From the NCBI RefSeq assembly GCF_013372265.1, contig NZ_CP054051.1, positions 2,070,596 through 2,134,595 of the forward strand: DNA of 64,000 bases, written 5' to 3'. Below are positions 53,140 through 60,215 of this stretch, piece by piece. The first letter of the stretch is position 1; the number at the start of each line of letters is the position of its first letter. Made by a program: the position numbers and the translations under genes. Under the pieces are notes generated by a model. The model saw only the letters and a list, made by a program, of their open reading frames with translations, had not been told where the DNA came from and searched no databases. This DNA is from Aliarcobacter cibarius (GTDB lineage Bacteria > Campylobacterota > Campylobacteria > Campylobacterales > Arcobacteraceae).

Positions 53140-53883
53140 TTGCTAAGTGACAAACTGGTTACTACATCAGATGGTAGCCATACACTTTTCTCTACAAAAT
53201 ACAATCAACACTTTCATAACACTGAAGATGGAAGTTTAAGTGAAGCATTAAACAAACATGTAATTCCAGCTTTAAGCTATCACTCAAACAAAGAAGAACT
53301 TAATATTTTAGATATTTGCTATGGTATTGGATACAATTCTCTTGCAACTATATACTATGTTCACAAAAATAATTTAAATTTAAAACTCAATATTTATTCA
53401 CCTGAGTTAGATTTTGATTTGATTAGATCACTAAAAGAGTTTAATTATCCTATAGAATTTGAGCCTTTTAAAAATATTATAAATGAACTCTCTTTAAATC
53501 AAAAATATAATGATGATAAACTTAATATTGAGATTTTTGTTGGTGATGCTAGAAATTATTTAAAGAAATTTCCAAACAATTTTTTTGATGTAATCTATCA
53601 AGATGCTTTTTCTAGTGATGTTAACTTTGAACTTTGGACAAAAGAATATTTTGATGATATTTTCAGAATTTCTAACTTTGATTCTATTTTGACAAGTTAT
53701 GCAATTTCAACAAATATAAGATTATCTATGTATGAAGCGGGTTTTTTTATCTATGAATCAAGACCAACTAAAAGAAAAATCACTCTAGCTTTTAAACAAA
53801 AACAAAATCTTATTGGTAAATATATTGACATGGAATTAAAAAAACAAAGAAACATAAATGCCAAAGCTTTATATGATAATTAA
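53140..53883 (+). CDS. MnmD/MnmC1-like tRNA methyltransferase
   Basis: A 247-aa SAM-dependent methyltransferase starting at TTG 53140, one base after luxS. It opens with LVTTSDGSHTLFSTKYNQHFHN, has the SAM loop LDICYGIGYNSL and YQDAFSSDVN, typical of the DUF752/MnmC N-domain. It lacks the FAD oxidase domain of enterobacterial MnmC, so it would only methylate nm5U to mnm5U at tRNA wobble position 34. Confidence 0.85.
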   Translation: MLSDKLVTTSDGSHTLFSTKYNQHFHNTEDGSLSEALNKHVIPALSYHSNKEELNILDICYGIGYNSLATIYYVHKNNLNLKLNIYSPELDFDLIRSLKEFNYPIEFEPFKNIINELSLNQKYNDDKLNIEIFVGDARNYLKKFPNNFFDVIYQDAFSSDVNFELWTKEYFDDIFRISNFDSILTSYAISTNIRLSMYEAGFFIYESRPTKRKITLAFKQKQNLIGKYIDMELKKQRNINAKALYDN

Positions 53884-55358: not shown

Positions 55359-56453
55359 TTATTTTACTAAAGAAGCAAAATCTTTATATATTGGAGAGTT
55401 TGATATAGGTGTAAACTCAGTACTTAAAATATCTTTATTTTTATATTTTAGTGCTACTGCTTTATTTTCAAAAACTTTTGTATATGTAACTTCTGCGAAT
55501 TTCTCAAAATCTTTTACATCATATTCTGTATTTATAGAATAAATTTCAACAGTTTTTTCACCTTTTATTGGATGACTTCCTGATTTAATAGATTTTATTT
55601 TTTCTATTTTAGCACCACTTGCAAGTGCTAATAAATAGTGTCCTAATCCAACTGCAAGAATTGGAATATTTGCATCTATTAATTTTTTAATATTTTCTAT
55701 TTCATTTTTATAAATATTTGGATTTCCAGCTCCACTACTTAATACAACTCCACCAATTTGTTTATCATTGAATCTTTTTATTATTTCATCTGAAGTAGTT
55801 TTATTTGATGTTACTTCAACTTCAAGACCTGATTCAACAAGCTCATTTAATAAAGATTTTTTAACTCCAAAGTCATAAACTACAACTTTTTTATCACTCA
55901 TTTTTGCTTTATTAAATTCTTGTGCATCATTATTCCATGCACCAGATTTATGTATATAATTCTCTTTTGTAGAAACTGTATCTACAAAATTTGTTTCATC
56001 ATATTTTTTGGCATCTTTTAGAAGTTTTGCTAATTCATCTTTAGAAGTTATTTCAGTAGATGCAACCATCATCTGACTACCTTCTTCTCTAACTATTTTT
56101 GTTAAGTATCTAGTATCAATATCACAAATTCCAATTACATCTTCTGATTTCAAGAAATCTCCTAAACTCATTTCTGCTCTAAAATTTGAGTAAGCATCAT
56201 GATAATTTCTTACGATCATTCCAATAGCATGTGCTTTTGAACTTTCAACATCAACTTTATTAGCTCCCGTATTTCCTATTTCAACAGCTGTAAAATTTAT
56301 AAAAAGACCTGCATTACTTGGATCTGTAATTATCTCTTGATAACCAAATGTTGCGTTATTATAAACTAATTTTCCTATTGCAGTTTTACTTGCACCAAAA
56401 GAGTGTCCTTGTAAATAAGTCCCGTTTTCTAAATAAATATATACTTTTTGCAT
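55359..56453 (-). CDS. carA: Carbamoyl-phosphate synthase small subunit lacking the glutaminase triad
   Basis: A 364-aa CarA from ATG 56453, overlapping the DUF507 stop as TGATG. The N-terminal CarA domain is conserved (GYQEIITDPSNAG, EIGNTGANKVDVES, IDTRYLTKIVREEG). The C-terminal GATase domain is of full length but degenerate. The nucleophile elbow, normally GxCLGHQ, reads AVGLGHY with Gly269 in place of Cys; the HPEAS block reads TPISN (Thr348 and Ile350 in place of His and Glu); SNGPGDP reads SSGAGNP. It cannot hydrolyse glutamine by the known mechanism. Position beside DUF507 and purA matches the true carA of Campylobacter. Confidence 0.93.
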   Translation of the reverse strand: MQKVYIYLENGTYLQGHSFGASKTAIGKLVYNNATFGYQEIITDPSNAGLFINFTAVEIGNTGANKVDVESSKAHAIGMIVRNYHDAYSNFRAEMSLGDFLKSEDVIGICDIDTRYLTKIVREEGSQMMVASTEITSKDELAKLLKDAKKYDETNFVDTVSTKENYIHKSGAWNNDAQEFNKAKMSDKKVVVYDFGVKKSLLNELVESGLEVEVTSNKTTSDEIIKRFNDKQIGGVVLSSGAGNPNIYKNEIENIKKLIDANIPILAVGLGHYLLALASGAKIEKIKSIKSGSHPIKGEKTVEIYSINTEYDVKDFEKFAEVTYTKVFENKAVALKYKNKDILSTEFTPISNSPIYKDFASLVK

Positions 56454-57004
56454 CAAATTAATCCTCTTTTTATTAACTCTTCTTCATAAAGCCTATGATA
56501 CACCAAATCATAGTCCTCCGTACCTGGAATTAGTTTTCTCTTATAGTTTCTAAGTTTAGCTAAAACCTCACTATCTGCCTTTTCAAACCCTTTAATAAAA
56601 TCATCCAAAGAACCAAATATAACATTCTTTATTTGGTTATCTGAACAAGTGAAATGTATATAATCCTCCTCCCATAGATAATCTAATATTTTGTGAGCAA
56701 TATCAGAAAATCTATCTTCATTGTTTAAGATAACGCCAAAATCATTTGCAAGTCTTTTTTTTGTCATCCAAAAAAGTTGTCTTCTATCCGCATTTAGATA
56801 CTCTATCTCTTCAGTTTGAGCATCTAAAATTTCGTGAACTTTCTCATCTAAAGCAAGCTCTTTTTCAATATCTTGATCCAAAATTCTCTCTACTTGCTCT
56901 TCAATGCTAGCTTTTTCTTTTCTCACCTCTATGAATTCACAAGATATTAAATCTCTTGTTATTCTTCTAGAAACGTATGGTGTATGGTGTAATTTTAATC
57001 TCAT
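56453..57004 (-). CDS. DUF507 family protein
   Basis: A 183-aa charged helical protein made of two DUF507-like halves, starting MRLKLHHTPYVSRRITRDLI with a later LAKLRNYKRKLIPGTEDYDLVYHRLYEEELIKRG. The family is conserved in Campylobacterota and some other phyla beside carA; its function is not known. It is placed between purA (2 bp away) and carA. Confidence 0.88.
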   Translation of the reverse strand: MRLKLHHTPYVSRRITRDLISCEFIEVRKEKASIEEQVERILDQDIEKELALDEKVHEILDAQTEEIEYLNADRRQLFWMTKKRLANDFGVILNNEDRFSDIAHKILDYLWEEDYIHFTCSDNQIKNVIFGSLDDFIKGFEKADSEVLAKLRNYKRKLIPGTEDYDLVYHRLYEEELIKRGLI

Positions 57005-57006
57005 GC

Positions 57007-59104
<2,098 letters not shown>

Positions 59105-59108
59105 TAAA

Positions 59109-60215
59109 CTATTTTCCTTTATAGAAAGTTTCTGCAAATACTTTATTTGCTGTACCATCAAAAGTTCTAATTCCTAACTCATCTAGTACAAGTTCTGTTG
59201 CATTAACAGCCCATGAAGCTTCAAAATCTTCAACTAATCCCATGTGATTTATTCTAAAAATTTTTCCTGCTAAATGATCTTGTCCACCAGCTATATCAAC
59301 GTTATATTTATTTTTTAATATTTTTCTAATTTCATTTGATTGCTCTGTATAAACAGTAGTCATAGCATTTGCAGGTTTTTTTGGATAAATCTCAAATCCT
59401 ATTGCTTTTAATGCTTCTTGAGTAGCTTTTGCTCTTAATGCTGTTTGCTTGTATAGATTTTCAAAACCTATCTCTTTAAATTTCTCTAAAATAGCTCCTA
59501 GTCCCATGATTAAAGTAGTAGCAGCCGTCCAAGCAGTTGTATTTTTTCTTTGATTTTTTAATTCAATTGCTAAATTAAAATAGTAACCAGCTGGTTTTTC
59601 TTCAATTTTTTCTACAGCTTTTGCAGATAAACCAATCATCGCAAGACCTGGAGGTAGCATAAATGCTTTTTGACTTCCAGTAATAAGTGCATCAATATTT
59701 GTAGTATCAATTTTTTCTACACCTAATGCAGTTATTCCATCTGCAACAATCATAATTTCTGAATTAATTTTTTTAATTTCCTTTGCTATCTCTTCAACAG
59801 GGTGTCTTAATCCACCTGCACTTTCGCAAACTTGAATAAAAATAGCATCAATATTTGAATCATTTTTTACAGTATTTACAACATCTTCAACACTAACTGG
59901 AGTATTCCATTCTTGTTTTAATTCAACATGATCAATATTGAAAGCTTTACAGATTTTTCCAAATCTTTCTCCAAATTTTCCAGAATTAACAGTAAGTGCT
60001 TTTTTTCTAGTAAGATTTGTAACACAAGCTTCCATAGCTCCTGTTCCACTAGAAGCTAGCATTAAAACTTCTGGCATATTGTAAATTTCAAGTAAAAGAT
60101 TTCTAGTTTTTTCAAAAATTCCTTCAAACTCTTTTGTTCTATGGTGTATTGTAATATCGCTCATTGCTTTTCTTGCAAACTCTGGTACAGGAGTTGGGCC
60201 TGGTGTTAATAACAT
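59109..60215 (-). CDS. Class V aminotransferase (alanine–glyoxylate / serine–pyruvate type)
   Basis: A 368-aa PLP enzyme: LLTPGPTPVPEFARKAM at the start, SSGTGAMEACV, VADGITALGV and the PLP-lysine block TGSQKAFMLPPG. The family covers serine–glyoxylate, alanine–glyoxylate and 2-aminoethylphosphonate-type transaminases; some Campylobacterota members are annotated as phosphoserine aminotransferase-like. The exact substrate is open. First gene of the operon running to carA. Confidence 0.9.
   Translation of the reverse strand: MLLTPGPTPVPEFARKAMSDITIHHRTKEFEGIFEKTRNLLLEIYNMPEVLMLASSGTGAMEACVTNLTRKKALTVNSGKFGERFGKICKAFNIDHVELKQEWNTPVSVEDVVNTVKNDSNIDAIFIQVCESAGGLRHPVEEIAKEIKKINSEIMIVADGITALGVEKIDTTNIDALITGSQKAFMLPPGLAMIGLSAKAVEKIEEKPAGYYFNLAIELKNQRKNTTAWTAATTLIMGLGAILEKFKEIGFENLYKQTALRAKATQEALKAIGFEIYPKKPANAMTTVYTEQSNEIRKILKNKYNVDIAGGQDHLAGKIFRINHMGLVEDFEASWAVNATELVLDELGIRTFDGTANKVFAETFYKGK

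Follow-up and report, generated by a model that had tools for sequence, protein, structure and literature searches.

In one clade of Aliarcobacter, the small subunit of carbamoyl phosphate synthetase (CPSase), CarA, has lost its entire glutaminase catalytic triad. The altered gene is single-copy and confined to that clade, it evolves under purifying selection, and accompanying change in the large subunit, CarB, is limited to one half of the protein. These points are shown by sequence. The likely reading is an ammonia-fed CarAB in which CarA is kept as a pseudo-glutaminase partner; here ammonia use, complex formation, and the route of ammonia entry are inferred, and no activity was measured. 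The standard textbook example of ammonia channelled from glutamine is bacterial CPSase.

The window, the whole 64,000-nucleotide stretch of Aliarcobacter cibarius DNA that was analysed, contains the following features of the carA locus:

57007..58257, minus strand: purA, adenylosuccinate synthetase, first in the conserved purA-DUF507-carA order
56453..57004, minus strand: DUF507 gene (ORF), adjoining carA in degenerate and intact genomes alike
55359..56453, minus strand: carA, CPSase small subunit, 364 aa, with an apparently dead glutaminase domain (ORF and domain profiles)
56064..56453, minus strand: N-terminal CarA domain, approximately aa 1-130, comparatively well conserved (profile match, alignment)
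55719..55739, minus strand: SSGAGNP, aa 239-245, a remodelled form of the NGPGDP oxyanion block that does not vary among the 12 core clade members
55647..55649, minus strand: codon 269, GGA, encoding Gly for the nucleophile Cys269; Gly in 13 of 13 clade members
55578..55583, minus strand: Ser291-Gly292, at which the tunnel glycine pair of E. coli (G292/G293) is short of one residue (alignment)
55404..55412, minus strand: codons 348-350, Thr-Pro-Ile for the catalytic His353-Pro354-Glu355 of E. coli numbering (alignment)
55398..55403, minus strand: Ser351/Asn352 junction, where the tunnel-lining loop (E. coli P358-D362; SPGPHE in sisters) is deleted, as in 13 of 13 clade members (alignment)

The carA reading frame is open for 364 aa from its ATG (56453..55359, minus strand), which overlaps the DUF507 stop codon as TGATG; start and ribosome-binding site are in order (AAGAGGATTAATTTGATG). 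The purA-DUF507-carA order is common to the degenerate clade and to intact sister species, and the operon and ribosome-binding site of carA are kept. Two other open reading frames in the window were named by eye from their translations: an MnmC-like methyltransferase (53140-53883, plus strand; TTG start), immediately following luxS, and a HisZ-like protein (58259-59161, minus strand), which adjoins purA on its upstream side.

The nucleophile elbow of the window CarA reads AVGLGHY, with Gly at 269 and Tyr at the equivalent of E. coli Gln273. The HPEAS block reads TPISN, E. coli His353 being replaced by Thr348 and Glu355 by Ile350, and the oxyanion-side block NGPGDP has become SGAGNP. The sister sequence HPEASPGPHES aligns to TPIS------N; the gap covers E. 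coli P358-G359-P360-H361-D362. A Cys nucleophile shifted to another position was considered and rejected: the glutamine amidotransferase (GATase) domain is without any Cys, and the sole Cys of the protein, C110, lies in the N domain and is present also in the intact sisters. Because the oxyanion block and Gln273 have gone along with the nucleophile, the general base, and Glu, this CarA almost certainly cannot hydrolyse glutamine, a conclusion that rests on sequence alone. An active class-I GATase has a nucleophile-elbow Cys and a His-Glu pair; the window CarA has neither.

The protein matches PF00988 at 136 bits and PF00117 at 75 bits, both above the gathering score. Its TIGR01368 (glutamine-hydrolysing CarA) score, 275.8 bits, falls below the cut-off of 307.35 that all 14 control genomes pass; its NF009475 score, 262.5 bits, is above the cut-off of 221. 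Orthology is supported by the purA-DUF507-carA synteny and by the same degenerate/intact split in the CarA and CarB trees. The other two TIGR01368 matches in the source genome, one complete contig of 2,336,659 bases, are TrpG/PabA and GuaA. CarB is present as a single normal copy, approximately 0.7 Mb from carA and unlinked to it.

When an AlphaFold (AF2) model of the window CarA (pLDDT 92.6) is superposed on known structures, 360 residues align with E. coli CarA at 1.8 A (Z 48) and 335 residues with human CPS1 at 2.0 A (Z 42). The alignment behind the model contained intact orthologues; agreement in fold is thus expected, and partly built in, rather than independent evidence.

How widely is the loss distributed? 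A family search found 11 other same-genus genomes whose CarA is 66-79% identical to that of the window, the remaining matches being 43-59% identical; the triad is missing in all 12 of these core members, the window genome included. A thirteenth, earlier-branching member is a MAG, G103 (L124:1489-2583), whose CarA reads GLGHQ, retaining Gln273 despite Gly269, and carries FNPPSN where HHPEAS is expected; its tunnel loop is already deleted. This CarA is a partial intermediate of the loss. The triad thus is lost in 13 of 13 species-level genomes of one clade, with small variations at His and Glu, and the motifs are intact in all 61 other family CarAs aligned. Named members of the clade include Arcobacter vandammei, Aliarcobacter vitoriensis, and Arcobacter cryaerophilus. 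In both the CarA and the CarB trees, a branch with full support (SH-aLRT 100) separates the 13 members from the rest, and a single origin on the clade stem therefore is the simplest history. Synteny and trees argue against horizontal replacement of carA.

Across the phylum, 188 of 200 sampled Campylobacterota genomes pass the CarA cut-off, and seven more have a match below it, six of which belong to this clade; in this sample, the clade alone has a full-length CarA below cut-off. These counts are based on per-genome best E-values and a tally. The seventh match comes from another family of the order (G179:C1:245853-246296, L133); it spans model positions 1-148 only and contains an internal stop, and is likely truncated or broken. 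Five near-complete Campylobacterota genomes of the sample (G162, G205, G248, G271, and G279) are without a full-length CarA.

The first-pass annotation was right in what it observed, and the loss proved more extensive than it had described. It had described loss of the whole triad (Gly269, codon GGA, in AVGLGHY; HPEAS changed to TPISN), which the alignment bears out, and a position beside DUF507 and purA, an order indeed common to sister species. It had called the surrounding GATase blocks eroded and the N-terminal domain well kept: the 12 core members all lack 37 of the 89 GATase positions that are invariant in the family, and the N domain, with 6 of 55 lost, is best described as better kept. 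It had taken the open, full-length frame as a sign that this is no simple pseudogene; carA frames are open and full-length in 13 of 13 clade genomes, and dN/dS of the GATase domain is approximately 0.10-0.18 for close pairs inside the clade (Nei-Gojobori), values that together reject a pseudogene. Sequencing error at several sites, which it had allowed for, is excluded, as is a frameshift, by the 12 further independent species-level genomes that share the loss. A second carA, which would have refuted its reading, was not found by TIGR01368 profile search of the complete 2,336,659-base genome. Its statement that the triad is intact in Campylobacter is supported only in part: intact triads were read by sequence in Arcobacteraceae and by family score alone in other Campylobacterota, not in Campylobacter by name.

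Selection on the degenerate domain has been purifying but weaker than in sisters. The ratio of GATase dN to CarB dN is 4.1 in the clade versus 1.05 in the sisters, indicating relaxed constraint on the clade domain. This relaxation is uneven: 62% of columns in the remodelled active-site motifs are invariant in the clade, versus 26% for the rest of the GATase domain. The best-conserved motifs of the domain are SSGAGNP, GLGH[YF], GSHP, and EF[TS]P. Since the remodelled motifs are more conserved than their surroundings, the old pocket must be under some kind of constraint.

Clade members share 92-96% identity in CarB, compared with 84-86% to same-genus sisters, and the clade dN/dS is approximately 0.05-0.12. 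When changes are polarised by the sisters and the family's other genera, 19 derived substitutions are fixed in the 12 core members; all 19 lie in residues 1-553, and none in residues 554-1080 (Fisher p = 5.7e-6, with 442 and 388 conserved columns available, respectively). In control lineages of the family the bias is absent or reversed (6 v 16, 1 v 9, 0 v 4, and 5 v 3 for the same two halves). Thirteen of the 19 changes also are found in G103. In E. coli CPSase, the half comprising residues 1-553 holds the carboxyphosphate domain, which is both the site of the ammonia reaction and the end point of the tunnel from CarA; the gate has been located in domain L1 (PMC4655335). The gate residues C232, A251, A314, and R265 are unchanged in the clade. 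Of the substitutions, Q262A is three residues from R265, and I230V is two residues from the gate residue Cys232. This bias is an unusual signature of joint CarB-CarA change; contact with CarA and formation of the heterodimer are inferred, the sites not having been placed on coordinates.

Demand for carbamoyl phosphate is retained. Genes for two carbamoyltransferases (PF02729), assigned to PyrB and ArgF at family level, occur in 30 of 31 genus genomes, the exception (G101) being 54% complete. Carbamate kinase, an alternative source of carbamoyl phosphate, was not found: the best matches reach approximately 34 bits, nowhere near the 358-bit cut-off. With PyrB and ArgF present and carbamate kinase absent, there is a need for carbamoyl phosphate and no visible source other than CarAB. 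Insertions in carA strongly impair the growth of Campylobacter jejuni (PMC5438104). Only CarA is affected by the loss: five other class-I GATases of the same genome (TrpG/PabA, GuaA, PyrG, HisH, and PurQ) retain Cys and His-Glu, which rules out a general loss of amidotransferase chemistry.

In the proposed mechanism, CarA is a pseudo-glutaminase that has the CarA fold and most likely still docks on CarB. CarB, its active sites and ammonia gate intact, would make carbamate from bicarbonate, ATP, and free NH3, the last probably entering through or beside the CarA-CarB interface. Without the loop that corresponds to E. coli P358-D362, the old tunnel should lie open to solvent. This same loop carries residues altered in the engineered E. 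coli tunnel variants described below, and entry through or beside the opened interface is therefore the most likely route. The switch from a glutamine-dependent (CPS II type) to an ammonia-dependent enzyme would have taken place a single time, at the base of this Aliarcobacter clade. CarA may be retained for assembly, for tunnel shaping, or for allostery or regulation; the reason for keeping it remains open. The ammonia-fed reading draws support from the loss of the tunnel-wall loop, from CarB changes confined to the CarA-facing half, from the intact gate, and from the retention of PyrB and ArgF in the absence of carbamate kinase. The first-pass annotation had proposed such an enzyme, with CarA as a structural or allosteric partner; the structural version is supported, with enzyme activity inferred, and the allosteric one is plausible only and untested. 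A bolder version holds that the clade's single essential CarAB has been naturally converted to free ammonia by a disarmed CarA, an opened tunnel, and matching CarB change, the old pocket having become an ammonia inlet or a regulator site; this version is compatible with the evidence but less likely than not.

Ammonia supply deserves comment. Given the poor Km of E. coli CPSase for ammonia, the clade enzyme would need either better ammonia affinity or high internal ammonia. Amt ammonium transporters number 0-1 in the degenerate clade versus 1-4 in intact sisters, which represents one evolutionary contrast rather than many independent ones; a p value would overstate it. The low count is consistent with life in ammonium-rich places, although it provides no active uptake.

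Other explanations were weighed. Glutamine could still be the donor, with another amidotransferase or glutaminase feeding ammonia in trans by docking on or channelling to CarB, and the five intact GATases are candidates for the role. Each, however, fits its own usual pathway, and no extra GATase of the class was found in the genome; moreover, a conserved protein with the CarA fold should occupy the CarB docking site. We regard this arrangement as very unlikely. Another view, that CarAB no longer makes carbamoyl phosphate and that pyrimidines and arginine are imported, has nothing in its favour beyond the dead CarA site, and is all but excluded by the high identity and low dN/dS of CarB and by retention of PyrB and ArgF.

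Two further alternatives keep ammonia as the substrate and differ in the fate of CarA. The old glutaminase pocket might now bind a regulator, regulation being the main reason for retaining CarA while ammonia feeds CarB. That the remodelled motifs are the best-conserved part of the domain speaks for this idea, but their conservation may reflect only fold or interface constraints, and no ligand is known; it seems unlikely. Alternatively, CarA could be a decaying relic on its way out, with CarB alone working with ammonia. In support, the clade GATase domain evolves approximately four times faster than CarB (the two rates being about equal in sisters), and in vivo synthesis of carbamoyl phosphate from NH3 has reportedly been shown for the E. 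coli large subunit alone (Rubino 1987, cited in PMC6245113). Against it stand full-length open frames in 13 genomes, dN/dS well below 1, and a conserved operon and ribosome-binding site, and decay is very unlikely.

No prior report of CarA active-site loss was found in the open-licence literature searched. In the A. butzleri genome paper carA goes unmentioned (PMC2147049), and the A. thereius genome paper gives CarA as an ordinary small chain (PMC5495459), an example of how current annotation hides the loss. What is new is a bacterial CPS II lineage turned pseudo-glutaminase. If the ammonia-fed reading is true, this clade has independently repeated the change from CPS II to CPS I, with the amidotransferase subunit kept without its chemistry or tunnel wall, and would separate the scaffold or regulator role of CarA from its glutaminase role. 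The partial intermediate in G103 and the intact sister enzymes are available for comparison. Aliarcobacter metabolic models with glutamine as the CPSase substrate probably are wrong.

The closest relatives for comparison are the sister Arcobacteraceae CarAs (for example L022, L030, and L123), which share the purA-DUF507-carA locus and approximately 52% identity with the window protein but have ICLGHQ, NGPGDP, and QHHPEASPGPHES all intact. E. coli CarAB likewise consists of orthologous small and large subunits with the same fold and the same CarB gate residues; its CarA has C269, H353, E355, and the P358-D362 loop, whereas clade CarA has none of these. Engineered E. coli variants mimic parts of the clade condition. 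Those whose tunnel is blocked or perforated can no longer use glutamine, yet work normally with external ammonia (PMC4655335), and Kim and Raushel (2004) are reported to have changed CarA P360 and H361, together with CarB R265, in their perforation study. Structure matches to the window CarA include the E. coli CarA variants C269S (1c30), in which the nucleophile is lost, and G359F (1m6v), in which a tunnel residue is changed. Each is a single engineered change; the clade combination is natural and conserved.

Human CPS1, the liver enzyme and a vertebrate carbamoyl-phosphate synthetase I, offers the nearest functional parallel. Like clade CarA, it keeps an inactive glutaminase-like domain in which the nucleophile Cys is replaced (by Ser294) and the old tunnel altered, and it takes ammonia from solution: Gln318, replacing E. 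coli Gly293, blocks the tunnel, and ammonia enters by another path along the moiety interface (PMC4655335). Unlike the clade enzyme, CPS1 is a single fused chain, needs N-acetylglutamate, and has lost only the Cys of the triad; the clade, by contrast, has two separate bacterial subunits of independent origin, has lost the whole triad and the tunnel loop, and serves pyrimidine and arginine supply. The window CarA thus meets one mark of a CPS I-type enzyme, a glutaminase domain inactive through Cys loss, and fails another, the single fused polypeptide. With ammonia use inferred, clade CarAB would work like CPS1, yet, encoded by two unlinked bacterial genes, it is no member of the CPS I family.
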